The notes beneath the pieces were generated by a model. It did not search any database. It was not told the DNA's origin and saw only the letters and a list, made by a program, of their open reading frames with translations. The translations under genes were made by a program, and so were the position numbers. A DNA stretch of 39,531 nucleotides from Wohlfahrtiimonas larvae (lineage in GTDB: Bacteria; Pseudomonadota; Gammaproteobacteria; Cardiobacteriales; Wohlfahrtiimonadaceae): the NCBI RefSeq assembly GCF_002006755.1, contig NZ_MVDO01000001.1, positions 1 to 39,531 of the forward strand. Direction: 5' to 3'. How positions within the stretch are numbered: position 1 is the first letter of the stretch; each line of letters begins with the position of its first letter. Shown here piece by piece: positions 9,457-34,338 of the stretch.

Positions 9457-10845
9457 TTAGATTGCTAGGGCTTTCTTGCATGCTTCCCATGAACGTGCTT
9501 GAGATGAAGCATATAATTCTAATTCATCAATTGTTTTTGCGCCTAAATCTCTCATGAATTCTTCTTGGTTTGAGCTGATTGTATATTCTGCTTGTGCATT
9601 GTCGCCCAAGTTAGATTGGAAAATACCTGCCGCGCTCACTGGCAAGAAATCTTCATAAACGATAGGCTCATAGCTAATTGCGCCAGCTGCGATTAAATCT
9701 TCAATCGTGGAATGCTCTGTAAATGAACCCGCTTTTGCTAATCCTTCTTCGGTAGGATAGTAAGCAAAATATGCTAATTTTTCATCATGCAATTCTTTGT
9801 AGCTATCAGGGAATGTTGCAAAGTGTTTTGTCAATGCTGCACGGTATTGGTCTGCATTAGATTCATTGGTTGTACCAATTTCTGCACGCGTTTGATTCAG
9901 CAATTGATCATATAAAATTCTACCTTTTGGCGTTAATGCTGCACCGCGTTGTTCGATTTCACCAAAGCGAGCAGTGTGATGACCTGTGTTTTCACTAGCT
10001 GTTTGATCTGTGAAACGTACATTTTCTTGCAATGCTTTAAAGCTCGTTTGACGAAGTAAAATAGGGCATTGACGAGCAGGAGGGCCTTCTACAACTGCCT
10101 TTGGTGTGATACCGCGTTTTGGCATTAATTCTTGTACTTGATCAATATCAACTGTTCTTGGTGTTAAATGGTTAATATGTGGGCCTTTGAATGCCACAAC
10201 GTCGGCGATTAAGCGATGTTGGTCATGTAAAGTTTGATATTGATCAGCTGTCACTGTTGCATCAGAATGCCAACGGAAAGTTTCTAAAACTTCTTGGATG
10301 AATTCATCGGCATCGGCTTCATTCAAGCCACCTTCTTTCTCATTTTTTTCAATCAAGCGCATTGCGCCATCTGTGAAGATATTGCGTTGAGAAAGGATTT
10401 CTTTGGCTTCTTTTTGTAGATCCTCATCATCAATCAATTCTAAGCGCAATAATGATGTGAATACACGGAATGGGCTCACATTCAAAGAATCTTCATGAAT
10501 CGCACGGAATGCTGTTGAATGAACAGGAACGCCCGCAGGTGTTAAGTCATAATAGCCTACAGGGAACATGCCCATCACTGAGAATAAACGGCGCATCGTG
10601 TGTAATTCTTGTGCTGTACCTAAACGAATGGCGCCGTGTCGCTCTTCATCTAGGCGCTCGATTTCGCCTGTTTTGATCAAGTGTTGATGTAGTTTAGGAT
10701 CATTCTCCAATGTAGATTGGTTCACATCAGAAACCAATTGCATTAAGTCGCCATACAATGGCACTTCATCGCGGTACATGTGGGACATTGCTCTAGAAAA
10801 TTTCGCTCTGATTAAATCAGGCGAGATAAATGCTGTATTTGACAT
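9457..10845 (-). CDS. hglS: 2-oxoadipate dioxygenase/decarboxylase (HglS/YdcJ, DUF1338 family)
   Basis: 462 residues from the ATG at 10845, which has a GGAGGA ribosome site 8 bases upstream; a longer TTG-initiated frame at 10860 would include that site and is rejected. The family signature MGMFPVGYYDLT...VPVHSTAFRAI is present. The metal-binding His-His-Glu set of HglS can be matched to the His of VHSTAFR, a His in GPHINHLTPR, and the Glu of RFGEIEQRGAAL. HglS-type enzymes convert 2-oxoadipate to D-2-hydroxyglutarate in bacterial lysine catabolism (established for Pseudomonas putida HglS). The gene lies 32 bp downstream of a class III aminotransferase that could supply 2-oxoadipate from 2-aminoadipate; that pairing is inference. 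Confidence 0.87.
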   Translation of the reverse strand: MSNTAFISPDLIRAKFSRAMSHMYRDEVPLYGDLMQLVSDVNQSTLENDPKLHQHLIKTGEIERLDEERHGAIRLGTAQELHTMRRLFSVMGMFPVGYYDLTPAGVPVHSTAFRAIHEDSLNVSPFRVFTSLLRLELIDDEDLQKEAKEILSQRNIFTDGAMRLIEKNEKEGGLNEADADEFIQEVLETFRWHSDATVTADQYQTLHDQHRLIADVVAFKGPHINHLTPRTVDIDQVQELMPKRGITPKAVVEGPPARQCPILLRQTSFKALQENVRFTDQTASENTGHHTARFGEIEQRGAALTPKGRILYDQLLNQTRAEIGTTNESNADQYRAALTKHFATFPDSYKELHDEKLAYFAYYPTEEGLAKAGSFTEHSTIEDLIAAGAISYEPIVYEDFLPVSAAGIFQSNLGDNAQAEYTISSNQEEFMRDLGAKTIDELELYASSQARSWEACKKALAI

Positions 10846-10877
10846 GGTGAGTTCCTCCAAATGAATTTTTAATATTA

Positions 10878-12122
10878 TTATTGATTTGCTTCAGCTAAAC
10901 ATTCACCTAAAATGTTCAAGCCTTCTTCTAATACTTCAGGTTCGATCGTAATGGGTGCTAATAAGCGGATGATGTTTCGGCTTTTACCGCTTGGCATTAA
11001 TAGCAATCCACGTTCACGGGCACTTGCTAATACTTTTGCCAACACTTCTGTACCTGCTGAACCATCTTTATTCAATAAAGTAATGCCACGCATTGCATCT
11101 ACGCCAGTTAATGGGCCAACACAAGTTAAACCTTCGGCTTGCCATTTTGCATGGTACTTTTCGATCATTTGCGTATATTGTGAGTTCCACTTAGCCAATT
11201 GTTGATCATCAGACATGATCTCCATCGTTGCAACTGCTGCTGCACAAGCGATAGGATTACCTGAATAAGTCCCACCTAAACTTCCTTTCGGTAAGTTATT
11301 CATTAAGTGCTCTTTGCCCATCACAGCGCCCAATGGCAAACCACCTGCGATACTTTTTGCAAGCAATAATAGATCAGGTTCAATGCCTAAATGCTCAAAA
11401 CCAAAGCGCTTGCCTGTGCGGCCAAAGCCCGATTGAATTTCATCTAAAACTAAGAGAATGCCATTTTGATCACAGAATTCACGCAAGTATTGTGCAAATT
11501 CTTTATCCATGAATTGGAATCCTGCTTCACCTTGGATTGGCTCTAGGAAAATGCATGCGATGTTTTGAACATCCACTTCTACGCTGAGTAAACGTGTCAA
11601 TGCAGCTTTTGCTTCTGCTGATGTTACACCAGTATCTTTGCTAGGAAAAGGTAAGTGATAAACAGGGCCAGGCAATGGGCCAATGCCTTGTTTGTACGGT
11701 GCAACTTTACCATTCAAATTTAATGCCGCTAATGTACGGCCGTGAAAGCCGCCATCAAATGCAATTACTCCTGTGCGCTTAGTTTGTAAGCGTGCAATTT
11801 TCAAAGCATTTTCTGTCGCTTCTGCACCGCAGTTTGTGAACATGCCCATCATGGGTTTTTCAGTTGGGATAAACTTTGCTAATGCATCCATTGCTTTTTG
11901 ATATTGGCCGTGTGGCACAGCATTGTAAGCATAATGAGTAAGCTTTTGTGCTTGTTCAGTAATTGCTGTAACGATCTTAGGATTACAATGACCTAAGTTT
12001 AAAACGCCAATGCCGCCAACAAAGTCGATGTAAGATTTACCATTTTCATCCCAAGCTTTAGCATTTAAGCCATGTGACAAAGTAATAGGGTGCACGATAG
12101 AAAGTGCGGATGTAATGCTCAT
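10878..12122 (-). CDS. Class III PLP aminotransferase (GabT-like; likely 2-aminoadipate transaminase)
   Basis: 414-residue fold-type I PLP enzyme of the 4-aminobutyrate/ornithine transaminase family. Visible motifs are NCGAEATENALKIAR, FDGGFHGRTLAAL, LVLDEIQSGFGRTG (PLP-pyridine Asp), the catalytic Lys in LLLAKSIAGGLPLGAV, and GGTYSGNPIACAAA. A strong GGAGGA site precedes the ATG. Sequence alone suggests GABA aminotransferase. The neighbour hglS, however, suggests that its substrate is 2-aminoadipate giving 2-oxoadipate, as proposed for a GabT-like enzyme in P. putida lysine degradation. The two genes form one transcript ending at 9409-9444. Confidence 0.88.
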   Translation of the reverse strand: MSITSALSIVHPITLSHGLNAKAWDENGKSYIDFVGGIGVLNLGHCNPKIVTAITEQAQKLTHYAYNAVPHGQYQKAMDALAKFIPTEKPMMGMFTNCGAEATENALKIARLQTKRTGVIAFDGGFHGRTLAALNLNGKVAPYKQGIGPLPGPVYHLPFPSKDTGVTSAEAKAALTRLLSVEVDVQNIACIFLEPIQGEAGFQFMDKEFAQYLREFCDQNGILLVLDEIQSGFGRTGKRFGFEHLGIEPDLLLLAKSIAGGLPLGAVMGKEHLMNNLPKGSLGGTYSGNPIACAAAVATMEIMSDDQQLAKWNSQYTQMIEKYHAKWQAEGLTCVGPLTGVDAMRGITLLNKDGSAGTEVLAKVLASARERGLLLMPSGKSRNIIRLLAPITIEPEVLEEGLNILGECLAEANQ

Positions 12123-13434: not shown

Positions 13435-14694
13435 GTGAAGTTGTTGTGGAATTGGTACATGAGCAAATCTTTTATGCTCAAAATTACGGTAGGTTTTATT
13501 CTTGGATTGGTTTTTGGTGTTGTACTAGGCCCACAAAATGCAATTTTTTCACCGCTTGGTGCTATCTTTATGAATTTATTGAAAATGATCGTAATTCCGC
13601 TTATTTTCTTATCATTGGTAGTTGCGGTTAATCATTCAAGCCCATCTGAATTGGGTCGTATTGGTGTCAAAGTTTTCCCAATTTATATCGTAACGACGGC
13701 ATTATCTGTTGTGATCGGTATTGTGATTGCGAAATTGATGAATCCTGGTGCTGGCGTAAAGTTACAAGAAGGTATTTCTGTGACTGTGCCTGATCGCCCA
13801 AGCTTCGTGGATACGATTATTAATATGGTGCCAACGAATATTGTGAAAACATTTGCTGATGGCAATATTTTAGCAATCGTGTTTGTGGCAATCATCATTG
13901 GTATTTCGATGTTGTACATGCGCCATTCGGATGATGCTACTCACAAAAATATGGGTGAAACACTCATGAAATTTGTGGAAGCTGCGAATGAAGTGACATT
14001 AAGAATCTTGAGCGGTATTTTGCAATATGCACCGATTGGTGTGTTTGGCATCACAGCAGCAACAATTGGCGCGCAAGGCTTAGATACAGTGATTGCATTG
14101 GGTAAGTTTATTTTAACTTCATACATCGGCGTTGGTTTATTGTTGGTTGTGTTCTATCCATTAATTTTAAAATTGTGGGGCTGTAAGGTTATTCAATTTT
14201 ACCGTGATATTAAAGAATGTATGCTGACATCATTTGTGACAGCAAGCAGCTTAGGTACATTGCCAATTTCAATTCGTGCAGCGAAAAAAGCAGGCATTGA
14301 TGAAAGCATTGCGAACTTAACATTGCCGATTGGTGCAACTGTGAATATGAATGGTACAGCATTGCGCTTGGGTGTTGCGGTGATCTTTGCCTCAGAAATC
14401 ATGGGTATCGATTTAAGTATCGTTGAACTTGTGTCGATTATCTTAATTGGTACATTGACAGCAGTTGGGACAGCTGGTGTTCCTGGTACTGGTTTGATCG
14501 CGATGTCCGCAGTATTTGCTCAAGCAGGTTTGCCAATTGAGATTGTTGCGTTAACAGCAGGGATTAATATTTTGGTGGATATGGTGTTTACATTAGGAAA
14601 TGTAACAGGTGACTTGGTTGCAGCTAAAATGGTGGATCTATCAGAAAAGCGAGCAGCTGCTAAATTAGGAGCACCTTCTGTAGAACTTTCTTGA
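13435..14694 (+). CDS. Dicarboxylate/amino acid:cation symporter (DAACS, DctA/GltT family)
   Basis: 419 residues from the GTG at 13435, chosen because AGGAGG (13423-13428) sits 6 bases upstream; the ATG at 13459 is an alternative. The glutamate-transporter fold is recognised from the HP1 loop TASSLGTLPISI, the TM7 motif NMNGTA, the HP2 stretch GTAGVPGTGLIAM, and TM8 LGNVTGDLVAAK. It imports dicarboxylates or acidic amino acids coupled to Na+ or H+. Its divergent position to the LysR regulator and the 2-oxoadipate genes suggests uptake of a substrate for that pathway (inference). Its TGA stop overlaps the -35 box of the following tyrosine-leader promoter. Confidence 0.92.
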   Translation: MKLLWNWYMSKSFMLKITVGFILGLVFGVVLGPQNAIFSPLGAIFMNLLKMIVIPLIFLSLVVAVNHSSPSELGRIGVKVFPIYIVTTALSVVIGIVIAKLMNPGAGVKLQEGISVTVPDRPSFVDTIINMVPTNIVKTFADGNILAIVFVAIIIGISMLYMRHSDDATHKNMGETLMKFVEAANEVTLRILSGILQYAPIGVFGITAATIGAQGLDTVIALGKFILTSYIGVGLLLVVFYPLILKLWGCKVIQFYRDIKECMLTSFVTASSLGTLPISIRAAKKAGIDESIANLTLPIGATVNMNGTALRLGVAVIFASEIMGIDLSIVELVSIILIGTLTAVGTAGVPGTGLIAMSAVFAQAGLPIEIVALTAGINILVDMVFTLGNVTGDLVAAKMVDLSEKRAAAKLGAPSVELS

Positions 14695-14718
14695 CATCTT
14701 TTTTAAAAAGATTATGAT
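14691..14718 (+). promoter_or_regulatory. Promoter of the tyrosine-leader/trpF-like transcript
   Basis: Consensus -35 TTGACA (14691-14696) and near-consensus -10 TATGAT (14713-14718) with 16-bp spacing. The -35 overlaps the stop codon of the symporter gene. The expected start near 14725 leaves a short 5' leader before the 19-codon leader ORF. Confidence 0.75.
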
Positions 14719-14751
14719 CAATCTGTTATCTAAATTATTTTAATTAAATAT

Positions 14752-14811
14752 ATGAACCAATTTTTTGCGAACTACTATTATTACTATTATCTCCACAAGC
14801 GGGAGATATAG
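14752..14811 (+). CDS. Tyrosine-rich leader peptide (attenuator leader, 6 consecutive Tyr)
   Basis: The ORF encodes the 19-residue peptide MNQFFANYYYYYYLHKREI and ends at TAG 14809-14811. The six Tyr codons (14773-14790) mix TAC and TAT. It sits between a strong promoter and a rho-independent terminator, with a gene just after, which is the exact layout of an amino-acid attenuation leader. Two Phe codons precede the Tyr run. No strong Shine-Dalgarno is seen upstream (AATTAAATAT). The 3' part of the ORF (CACAAGCGGGAGATATAG) resembles the equivalent part of the trp leader in this window (CACAAGGCGGGAGATTTAG). I read it as a sensor of charged tRNA-Tyr, possibly with a Phe contribution. Confidence 0.82.
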   Translation: MNQFFANYYYYYYLHKREI

Positions 14812-14878
14812 CTGTTCGTGAATCAAAAATAGTTCACCCTATATCAAATGAAAGCCCGCTAGAAAGCGGGCTTTTTTT
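14788..14878 (+). promoter_or_regulatory. Tyrosine-responsive transcription attenuator (alternative RNA structures)
   Basis: Three mutually exclusive structures can be drawn. The protector hairpin TATCTCC/GGAGATA (14788-14794 with 14802-14808) overlaps the last Tyr codon. The antiterminator stacks AGCGGG (14798-14803) with CCCGCT (14855-14860), GATATAG (14805-14811) with CTATATC (14839-14845), and GTGAA (14818-14822) with TTCAC (14833-14837). The terminator is at 14851-14874. A ribosome stalled on Tyr codons would break the protector and allow the antiterminator, giving read-through. A ribosome reaching the stop codon would cover the antiterminator's 5' strand and allow termination. The pairings are directly visible; the regulation is inferred from the classical trp/phe attenuation model. 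Confidence 0.78.
14851..14878 (+). terminator. Attenuator terminator before the trpF-like gene
   Basis: Perfect 10-bp stem AAAGCCCGCT (14851-14860) and AGCGGGCTTT (14865-14874), loop AGAA, continuing into a T-run. It lies 18 bases before the next start codon. Confidence 0.9.
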
Positions 14879-14896
14879 ATATCTAAAGGAAATGAA

Positions 14897-15487
14897 ATGG
14901 CAGCGTTAACACAATTGAAAACATTACAATCGAAAGAATCCATTGTGAGTGGTATTACAAGTCGTGCAGATTTAATGGCAGCACATGCAGCAGGTGCAAC
15001 TTATGCAGGCTTTATTTTTGTGTTGACGTCGCCTTATGGCATTGCGATTGAAGAAGCGAAAGAGATCGCCAAAAATTCACCTTTAAAGCACATTGGTATT
15101 TTCCAAAATTCAGATTTAGCGGATATTTTGTATGTGGTGAATGAAATAAAACTTGATGCCATTTTATTGAATGGCTGGGAAACTCAGGCATTTATTACCC
15201 AATTGCGTACGCAATTACCTGAATCTATTAAAATTATCAAAATTGCTCATTTAAAGGATGATGCGCCCAAAATGAATTACCAACATGTGGATTTTTACTT
15301 ATTGGGCGGCCATGTTGGGGAAATTCTAGAGCCGAATTGGACATTACTCCAAAATATAGATTTGAGTAATGTATTTTTATCAGGCAACTGGAGGGATAGT
15401 ACATTGCTACCTAATATTGAATCTCGACCATTGGGTTTTGAGTTGAATTTTAAGATGTCAACTGCAAAAATGCATTGGTCCCATTAG
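14897..15487 (+). CDS. Stand-alone TrpF-like protein, probably a catalytically inactive pseudoenzyme
   Basis: 196 residues, AAGGA ribosome site, ATG start. It aligns along most of its length with the TrpF half of the trpCF product at 32965-34338: SGITSRADLMAAHAAGATYA against CGLKSLEAATAAYESGAYYG, then GFIFVLTSPYGI, HIGIFQNS, LDAILLNGWETQAFITQLRT. Phosphoribosylanthranilate isomerase needs a Cys in its K-x-C-G motif and an Asp near D-x-x-x-GGTG. Here the Cys is Ser (VSGIT), the QLHG motif is LLNG, and the Asp/GGTG/FDW region reads LLGGHVGEILEPNW. The last ~35 residues do not follow TrpF. It is therefore unlikely to isomerise PRA. It is the only gene behind the tyrosine attenuator, which suggests a tyrosine-linked regulatory or scavenging role (speculative). 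Its 3' end overlaps the convergent gene by 38 bp. Confidence 0.8.
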   Translation: MAALTQLKTLQSKESIVSGITSRADLMAAHAAGATYAGFIFVLTSPYGIAIEEAKEIAKNSPLKHIGIFQNSDLADILYVVNEIKLDAILLNGWETQAFITQLRTQLPESIKIIKIAHLKDDAPKMNYQHVDFYLLGGHVGEILEPNWTLLQNIDLSNVFLSGNWRDSTLLPNIESRPLGFELNFKMSTAKMHWSH

Positions 15488-31767: not shown

Positions 31768-31854
31768 ATGACACGCATTACATCAGTTTCACGTAATTTT
31801 TGGTGGCAAATCTCTCACAAGGCGGGAGATTTAGTCGTGTCATGGCAAAAATAA
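31768..31854 (+). CDS. trpL: trp operon leader peptide TrpL
   Basis: A 28-codon ORF (begins MTRITSVSRNFWWQISHKAG, ends VSWQK) with tandem Trp codons at 31801-31806 and a third Trp codon at 31843-31845. An AAGGAA ribosome site lies about 8 bases upstream. It is followed by a rho-independent terminator and then trpD, the standard trp attenuation layout. Its central part, CACAAGGCGGGAGATTTAG, is clearly related to the tyrosine leader at 14752-14811. Confidence 0.88.
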   Translation: MTRITSVSRNFWWQISHKAGDLVVSWQK

Positions 31855-31901
31855 AAGTCAGTACATGAAAAAAGAAACCCGCATATAAGCGGGTTTTTTT
31901 T
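31808..31901 (+). promoter_or_regulatory. trp operon transcription attenuator
   Basis: The protector hairpin AAATCTCTC/GGGAGATTT (31808-31816 with 31824-31832, one G-U) starts 1 base after the Trp codons. The antiterminator can pair GCGGG (31822-31826) with CCCGC (31878-31882) around an inner TCATG/CATGA stem (31840-31844 with 31864-31868). The terminator is at 31875-31896. Stalling on TGG-TGG would open the protector and favour the antiterminator; completed translation would favour termination. The pairings are visible in sequence, and the behaviour follows the known trp attenuation model. Confidence 0.8.
31875..31901 (+). terminator. trp attenuator terminator
   Basis: AAACCCGC (31875-31882), loop ATATAA, GCGGGTTT (31889-31896) and a T-run: a perfect 8-bp stem 58 bases before trpD. 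Confidence 0.9.
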
Positions 31902-32958: not shown

Positions 32959-32964
32959 TTGATC

Positions 32965-34338
32965 ATGGCAACTATCTTAGAAAAAATCGTCGCAGACAAA
33001 TACATTGAAGTAAGTTTATTGAAGCAGGAGAAACCTTTCTGTAATTTCCAAATGGATATTGAACCCAATGATCGTGATTTCTACGCATCATTAGCTTCAG
33101 CAAGGCCAGCTTATATTTTGGAGTGTAAGCCAAAATCACCTTCAAAAGGCACGATTAACCCAAACTTTAACTTAACAAAAATCGTGACAGCTTATTCACC
33201 ATTTGCTTCTGCAATTTCAGTGTTAACGGATAATAAATATTTTGGTGGCGAATTTAAGAACTTAAAAATTGCACGTGAATTAACAGATAAACCATTACTG
33301 TGCAAAGATTTCATTATTGATGAATACCAGATTTATTATGCGCGCTTACATGGTGCAAGCGCAGTATTATTGATGTTGTCAGTGTTATCCGATGATAAAT
33401 ATTTAGCACTTCGTGAAGTTGCACATTCATTGAATATGGGCGTATTGACAGAAACCAGTAATGAAGCTGAATTAGAAAGAGCAATCACACTCGATGCAAA
33501 AGTGATCGGCATCAATAACCGCGATCTACATACTTTAACTGTGAATTTAGAAACCACAAAAAAATTGGCAGTGAAGATTCCTGAAGATCGCATTGTGATC
33601 AGTGAATCAGGCATTTCATCTCACAATGATGTAGTAGATTTATCACCATATGCAGATGGATTCTTAGTAGGTAGCCATTTAGTGGGTTCAGATAATTTAG
33701 ATTTAGCATTGCGTGAATTGATTTTTGGTACACACAAAGTCTGTGGCTTGAAATCATTAGAAGCAGCAACGGCAGCTTATGAGTCGGGTGCTTATTATGG
33801 TGGCTTAATCTTTGTAGAAAAATCACCGCGCTATATTTCACCAGAAGATGCGAAAGCATTGATGAATGTACCATTAAATTTTGTGGGTGTTTTTCAGAAT
33901 GCGGCGATTGAATTTGTAAGCACAATTGCAAAGGATCTGAATTTAAAAGCAATTCAGTTGCATGGTGATGAAAATTCAGCATATATTACTGAACTACGTG
34001 CGGAATTACCGCAATCAGTGGAGATTTTTAAAGCTATTGATGCGAGCAAAATGGAAGCACAGCAAGATTATTTAACAAATGAATTAATTGATTGCATCGT
34101 GCTCGATTATGGGCAAGGTGGTACGGGGAAAAGCTTCGATTGGTCAATCATCCAAACATTACCACAGCGTCGTTATTTATTGGCGGGCGGAGTGGGAGAA
34201 GAGAATATCAGTGATGCATTGAATCAAAAAGTGACAGGCGTAGATATGAATTCCGCTTTAGAAGTCATTAAAGGTGAAAAATGCACGCAGAAGATACAGA
34301 ACATTTTTAAAACCATTCGTGAATACAGAACGGTTTAA
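32965..34338 (+). CDS. trpCF: Bifunctional indole-3-glycerol-phosphate synthase / phosphoribosylanthranilate isomerase TrpCF
   Basis: 457 residues from the ATG at 32965; the TTG at 32959 is not used. The N-terminal TrpC barrel (about 1-255) has YILECKPKSPSKG, LLCKDFIIDEYQIYYARLHG, VIGINNRDLHTLTVNLETT and RIVISESGIS. The C-terminal TrpF barrel (about 256-457) has the catalytic Cys in KVCGLKSLEA, AIQLHGDE, the catalytic Asp in IVLDYGQGGTGKSFDW, and LLAGGV. It therefore performs both the isomerisation of PRA to CdRP and the closure to indole-glycerol phosphate. An active TrpF here makes the stand-alone TrpF-like gene at 14897 unnecessary for tryptophan synthesis. Confidence 0.96.
   Translation: MATILEKIVADKYIEVSLLKQEKPFCNFQMDIEPNDRDFYASLASARPAYILECKPKSPSKGTINPNFNLTKIVTAYSPFASAISVLTDNKYFGGEFKNLKIARELTDKPLLCKDFIIDEYQIYYARLHGASAVLLMLSVLSDDKYLALREVAHSLNMGVLTETSNEAELERAITLDAKVIGINNRDLHTLTVNLETTKKLAVKIPEDRIVISESGISSHNDVVDLSPYADGFLVGSHLVGSDNLDLALRELIFGTHKVCGLKSLEAATAAYESGAYYGGLIFVEKSPRYISPEDAKALMNVPLNFVGVFQNAAIEFVSTIAKDLNLKAIQLHGDENSAYITELRAELPQSVEIFKAIDASKMEAQQDYLTNELIDCIVLDYGQGGTGKSFDWSIIQTLPQRRYLLAGGVGEENISDALNQKVTGVDMNSALEVIKGEKCTQKIQNIFKTIREYRTV

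Follow-up and report, generated by a model that had tools for sequence, protein, structure and literature searches.

A probable tyrosine-codon attenuator precedes a TrpF-derived gene without catalytic residues in Wohlfahrtiimonas

The window analysed here, a stretch of 39,531 nucleotides from Wohlfahrtiimonas larvae, contains a gene derived from trpF that is preceded by a promoter, a short leader ORF with a run of tyrosine codons, three RNA stems and an intrinsic terminator (Table 1). These elements had been proposed in a preliminary description of the locus, which named a near-consensus promoter, a 19-residue leader ORF with six Tyr codons, a protector hairpin over the last of these codons, a three-part antiterminator (6+7+5 bp) and a terminator, and we found each of them at the place given, the terminator being a strong one. 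The next gene in the window is convergent with the TrpF-derived gene (hereafter pseudo-TrpF) and overlaps its 3' end, so that the attenuator is expected to control this gene alone there.

Table 1. Coordinates of the Tyr leader unit and of the elements compared with it
Feature	Position in the window	Strand	Remarks
Sigma-70-type promoter, TTGACA-16-TATGAT	14691-14718	+	11/12 consensus positions
Leader ORF, MNQFFANYYYYYYLHKREI-stop	14752-14811	+	19 codons; homologous leader in 8/8 loci
Sensor, six consecutive Tyr codons (TAC TAT TAT TAC TAT TAT)	14773-14790	+	
Protector (1:2) hairpin, AUCUCC:GGAGAU	14789-14807	+	Arms 14789-14794:14802-14807; overlaps last Tyr codon
Three-part antiterminator (2:3)	14798-14860	+	
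Antiterminator, outer helix	14798-14803/14855-14860	+	6 bp
Antiterminator, middle helix	14805-14811/14839-14845	+	7 bp
Antiterminator, inner helix	14818-14823/14832-14837	+	5 bp plus a G-U
Intrinsic terminator (3:4) with T run	14850-14879	+	11 bp stem, 6 G-C pairs, within 14850-14875
Pseudo-TrpF, TrpF-derived gene without catalytic residues, 196 aa	14897-15487	+	PF00697, E 3e-18
Trp leader of the trpD-CF-B-A operon, MTRITSVSRNFWWQISHKAGDLVVSWQK-stop	31768-31854	+	TGG TGG; comparison element, outside the Tyr unit
Terminator of the trp attenuator, ACCCGC/GCGGGT	31875-31898	+	
trp operon, trpD-trpCF-trpB-trpA	from 31960	+	
trpCF fusion	32959-34338	+	Intact TrpF domain (KVCG, HGDE, VLD, GGTG, AGG)
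Tyr/Phe leader loci	L106 (G000:C74:3043-3143 region); also L107, L108, L109, L112, L113		

The gene was present in 6/6 Wohlfahrtiimonas genomes and in 2/2 genomes of a second genus of the same family (g3). The other genomes of the order that were compared had only a fused or ordinary TrpF, or no match, and sampling 369 genomes of the class yielded no further member. All eight loci having the gene also had the promoter, the Tyr run, the stems and the terminator together, with a promoter of the form TTGAC[AT]-16-TATGAT/TAATAT and a constant 16-bp spacer. A covariance model made from the Tyr leaders alone (R1) recovered the eight loci at E 5e-18 to 1e-14, the model having been built on them or on near copies; it gave no second strong Tyr-only leader, and most of its matches above about E 0.005 are probably due to chance. 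Other stretches of the genome coding for four consecutive Tyr residues had no recognisable leader among the open frames checked, which were part of the total. At the protein level, W. populi is 91% identical to the window genome at the Tyr-leader locus. Leader and gene stay linked in three different neighbourhoods: beside an SDF symporter and a Dph6-like gene in the window, G002, G004 and G005; beside a cupin-sized gene and, on our own reading, a malate:quinone-oxidoreductase-like gene in G001 and G003; and beside a permease-like gene in G021 and G022.

The leader peptides of the eight loci, exemplified by MNQFFANYYYYYYLH, MNQFFTSYYYYYYLH, MTHLFATYYDYYLH and MNLNFATYYYYYYLH, contain four to six Tyr codons each, in one case as YYDYY. 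Except for this single Asp, Tyr is retained throughout, and TAC and TAT swap synonymously between species. Isolated Phe codons are also present in the Tyr leader. The stop codon is placed differently among species, indicating that the tail of the peptide is not a target of selection. In the window species and in W. populi, the start codon of the leader is preceded by a weak Shine-Dalgarno match or by no clear one. Since a short ORF containing a Tyr run lies behind a promoter in 8/8 loci, we class the ORF as a putative peptide-leader sensor.

Structure in the leader RNA goes far beyond that of its dinucleotide shuffles (z = -5.07, 0/200 shuffles), and the protector and terminator folds are mutually exclusive with the antiterminator fold. 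Conservation of the Tyr run with covariation in the three stems had been suggested as a check, and the comparison bears out the Tyr-sensing reading. Stems and Tyr run were kept in 8/8 loci, and the antiterminator scored 0.210 for covariation, compared with 0.117 for shuffles (0/500 reach it) and 0.02-0.08 for slid pairings. Its middle helix has three pairs altered on both sides in a compensatory manner, with 90% of cells paired. Its outer helix, on the other hand, is invariant among homologues, and the inner helix is paired in 57% of cells in a fixed alignment, each sequence still folding a local hairpin there. Protector and terminator are paired in 100% of cells across the seven distinct sequences and hardly vary, so that covariation speaks neither for nor against their pairing.

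To model switching, we folded nascent transcripts of the seven distinct sequences that end before the 3' arm of the terminator, with a stalled ribosome covering 14 nt downstream. The probability of the 2:3 core was 0.0-0.38 on naked nascent RNA, mostly 0.9-1.0 with a ribosome stalled inside the Tyr run, and 0.0 in 7/7 sequences with the ribosome at the stop codon. Lower values were obtained for stalls on the last Tyr codon (several species) or on the first (two species). The ordinary trpD leader of the window, used as a control, gave the same pattern for naked, stalled and stop states. In this model it is thus a stall at the sensor codons, and not the end of leader translation, that favours the antiterminator, and alternative folding of the region yields the switch anticipated from its geometry. 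The Tyr run is the final codon block able to change the fold. Stalls at several codons preceding it in the window leader, and at nearly every codon up to it in G001 and G003, are also predicted to give the antiterminator; selectivity for tyrosine would consequently rest on codon composition and not on the fold alone. When equilibrium is assumed, the complete transcript adopts the terminator fold in every case, from which it follows that antitermination must be kinetic, as for the trpD control.

The arrangement is what would be expected of a transcription attenuator worked by ribosomes on a leader peptide, like those of trp, phe and his, spanning 14691-14879 and having Tyr codons as its sensor. 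When tRNA-Tyr is charged, the ribosome would reach the leader stop and prevent the 2:3 antiterminator, and the 3:4 hairpin would end transcription at about 14875. Should tRNA-Tyr be uncharged, a ribosome stalled within the Tyr run would mask the 5' arm of the protector; the nascent RNA could then fold the three-part antiterminator, letting RNA polymerase enter the gene. On comparative sequence grounds we regard this RNA mechanism as well supported, and a response to tyrosine itself is what we infer from it.

The Tyr leader resembles the leaders of the tryptophan genes, which lie at two separate loci, trpE and trpD-CF-B-A, each with its own Trp-codon attenuator (L120 and window 31768-31898, respectively); the trpE locus had its own WW leader wherever the sequence was read. 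R1 detected the trpD leader of the window at E 3e-4, Wohlfahrtiimonas trpD leaders at 2e-4 to 1e-3 and those of g3 at about 0.015, as well as two trpE leaders, MTHFTQYLWWHISSSREMVLCVQ in G003 (E 3e-4) and MTHLTQYLWWHISSSREMVLCVQ in G001 (E 1e-3). Within the window, pairwise similarity between the Tyr and trpD leaders had a z of 6.1 against mononucleotide shuffles, and the hairpin TCTCTCACAAGGCGGGAGAT of the trpD leader corresponds in place to TATTATCTCCACAAGCGGGAGATAT of the Tyr leader. The two hairpins are offset by one base, because of which RNAalifold mispaired the protector on a mixed Tyr/Trp alignment. The G003 Tyr and trpE leaders were closer still (z 13.3), and the G001 trpE leader is nearly identical to that of G003; this likeness (L110, L111) could reflect lineage-specific replacement or conversion between leaders. 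No similarity was detectable between the window's own trpE leader and its Tyr leader (z 0.4), and more than one trp leader could accordingly be the parent. In the genomes of a group without pseudo-TrpF (g4, probably Ignatzschineria), the Trp leader has a Tyr beside the Trp pair (NYWW or SYWW). Altogether, the Tyr leader is probably a paralogue of a trp-operon leader in which Trp codons were exchanged for Tyr, the change presumably having run from Trp to Tyr. Owing to this resemblance, its origin is better explained by duplication of a trp attenuator and replacement of codons in the copy than by free invention.

The ancestry of the downstream protein in TrpF is clear from the PF00697 domain (66.7 bits against a cut-off of 22.7) and from E. 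coli TrpCF (1PII), its top match both by sequence and by fold. The NCBIfam equivalog cut-offs for TrpF and TrpCF were missed widely (101.9 against 380 and 57.8 against 215 bits). The predicted structure is a TIM barrel of middling confidence (mean pLDDT 67, poor past residue 163), from which the last helix is missing. In 7/7 orthologues the catalytic Cys (general base) is Ser and the catalytic Asp (general acid) is Gly, and the phosphate-binding residues (GGTG/AGG) are replaced. At positions chosen as invariant across six TrpF domains of the family, the substitutions are C18S, R47Y/F, H92N, D137G, G142E, A162S and G164N, mostly to one common residue in all seven orthologues, which points to a pocket that was rebuilt rather than one that is decaying. 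Residues S18, N92, W94, E95, H118, G137, E142, N164 and W165 would belong to this rebuilt pocket. Pairwise dN/dS values of 0.04, 0.06 and 0.10 indicate purifying selection; the frame is open in 8/8 loci and 70/196 residues are invariant in seven sequences. Conservation is higher at the catalytic strand ends of the barrel (17/28) than at the opposite ends (7/28), with p 0.007 when four positions per strand are taken and p 0.06 with three. The seven orthologues form one clade on a long stem (100/100) and are about 39-46% identical to the TrpF domains of g4, compared with 28-31% to the TrpCF of their own genome. Judged by its sequence, pseudo-TrpF is not a working TrpF and is very unlikely to act as a normal phosphoribosylanthranilate isomerase. 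The earlier idea of a Tyr run controlling a TrpF homologue therefore holds as regards the Tyr leader and the ancestry of the gene, but not as regards a working TrpF, an intact TrpCF being encoded in the trp operon. With the catalytic residues gone from the one gene and TrpCF intact elsewhere, the paradox of a Tyr switch on a Trp-branch enzyme dissolves in part.

Leader-peptide attenuators are established for Trp, Phe, His, Thr, Leu and Ile/Val. A Tyr-only example was not found in our search of freely accessible papers, and going by that literature the present one would be new. Like trpL (RF00513, Trp_leader), the Tyr element has a short leader with tandem codons for the sensed amino acid just 5' of the 1:2 stem, a GCGGG:CCCGC 2:3 core and a terminator, and similarity at the sequence level extends to the trpD leaders, and to some of the trpE leaders, of its genus. 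It differs in having Tyr codons for the tandem Trp, a long three-part antiterminator and a target that is, by sequence, not a working Trp enzyme; it scored 22.0 bits with RF00513, below the gathering score of 41, and the window's trpD leader scored 40.6. Phe_leader (RF01859; pheA, pheST) likewise senses an aromatic amino acid through a codon run, but the amino acid is Phe, and with 26.4 bits the Tyr leader stayed below the gathering score (55). The top sub-threshold Rfam match to the whole Tyr leader was RF00512 (Leu_leader, E 5e-7), a leader-peptide attenuator with Leu codons (39.2 bits, gathering score 50). Tyr T-boxes (tyrS and others) read Tyr-tRNA charging via transcription attenuation, but they bind the tRNA directly, without a leader peptide. 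No T-box covariance match was found at the gathering threshold in the window, nor up to E 10 in 14690-14900. The aroR-aroF attenuator of Corynebacterium glutamicum has a Tyr codon in a leader ahead of an aromatic gene, but that leader is Phe-Tyr-Phe and responds to Phe, not Tyr (PMC11802643), and the Acholeplasma aroF motif reads Phe (PMC8632094). As for the protein, pseudo-TrpF resembles TrpF/PRAI (PF00697; E. coli 1PII, T. maritima 1NSJ) in sequence and predicted fold, and differs in the replaced catalytic Cys, Asp and phosphate-loop residues and in the absent last helix. The same search of freely accessible papers returned no TrpF pseudoenzyme. Pseudo-TrpF is a rare candidate for a conserved one.

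Computation established the conservation of the unit, its alternative folds, its likeness to trp leaders, the replacement of catalytic residues and purifying selection. We consider it very likely that 14691-14879 is a Tyr-codon attenuator, most likely a paralogue of a trp attenuator, whose target is a TrpF-derived protein that, in all likelihood, does not serve as a normal phosphoribosylanthranilate isomerase. Sensing of a signal different from Tyr-tRNA charging, be it queuosine or another modification of tRNA-Tyr, general translation stress or arrest by the poly-Tyr peptide, seems improbable to us. Queuosine and i6A-type modifications on tRNA-Tyr do affect Tyr decoding, according to one report (PMC13326639). 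Stalls at additional upstream codons also favour the antiterminator in some species. But TAC and TAT are both used and interchange, and since queuosine effects are usually codon-biased, this counts against queuosine sensing; moreover, in where it lies and how it is built the Tyr run corresponds to the WW sensor of the paralogous trp leaders, and those are expected to read charging. Still less credible is the view that a trp attenuator and a trpF fragment were duplicated and are now decaying, with no present function and a Tyr run arisen by chance drift; to this view we attach almost no weight. The lost catalytic residues, the missing helix and the restriction to two genera of one family would suit such decay, but the open frames, the low dN/dS and the invariant residues would not, and neither would the conservation of Tyr run and stems or a linkage kept although the neighbours changed.

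For the protein, it appears highly improbable that an altered active site still supports a TrpF-like isomerase activity. The PF00697 match, the TrpF fold and the catalytic face as the best-conserved side of the barrel (less marked with the narrower choice of positions) would fit it, but the general base, the general acid and the phosphate-binding residues have all been replaced, and every genome carrying pseudo-TrpF also has an intact TrpCF. Our best guess is a role other than isomerization, induced by tyrosine starvation, with a new ligand-binding or catalytic role among the possibilities; the protein would be either a pseudoenzyme or a TIM barrel of new function. Somewhat short of even expectation, we propose that a trp attenuator was duplicated and recoded from Trp to Tyr and that the TrpF under its control was remodelled into a regulator induced by Tyr starvation, or into a new TIM-barrel protein, that links the Tyr and Trp branches. 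If true, sensor and pseudoenzyme output changed pathway together. A narrower form of our main reading, which we think conceivable but rather unlikely, is that the protein holds back the Trp branch, perhaps through contact with TrpCF, TrpD or TrpE, such that tyrosine starvation would divert chorismate from Trp to Tyr. The gene would be on when Tyr is short, it has the ancestry of a Trp-branch enzyme and its leader is kin to a trp leader; in addition, type II was the sole kind of DAHP synthase detected, so that the three branches draw on one chorismate pool. Interaction with Trp enzymes is nevertheless purely hypothetical, and simple competition for phosphoribosylanthranilate is unlikely given the loss of substrate-binding residues. 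Pseudo-TrpF would offer a concrete entry to how tyrosine supply might be tied to the Trp branch.

Regarding the pathway setting, the compared genomes carry a prephenate-dehydrogenase (TyrA) gene, and the type II DAHP synthase was found in 5/6 genomes. The stretch read upstream of the DAHP synthase genes contained no leader ORF of the aromatic type. PF00793 matched only what is, on our own reading, a KdsA-like gene of about 285 aa. We also observed a second aromatic attenuator, whose leader MNKIIALVYFFYFYFKPCGTRRIL contains Tyr and Phe codons. It lies ahead of a gene for a metabolite/H+ symporter; in the genome from which the window comes, a ureidoglycolate-dehydrogenase-like (AllD) gene follows the symporter gene. 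One small genome thus combines leaders with Trp, Phe/Tyr and Tyr codons, and the evolution of attenuator specificity becomes traceable codon by codon. Just upstream of the trpE promoter region (L120, G000:C106) lie the repeats GTTAACTGCCGAATAGGCAGCTTAGAAA, which resemble a type I-F CRISPR array. Finally, at 9457-12122 of the window, a 2-aminoadipate transaminase gene (NF049976, above cut-off) adjoins a DUF1338/2-oxoadipate dioxygenase-like gene. The pair, which suggests a role in lysine catabolism, lies next to genes for a GcvA-like LysR regulator and an SDF symporter.
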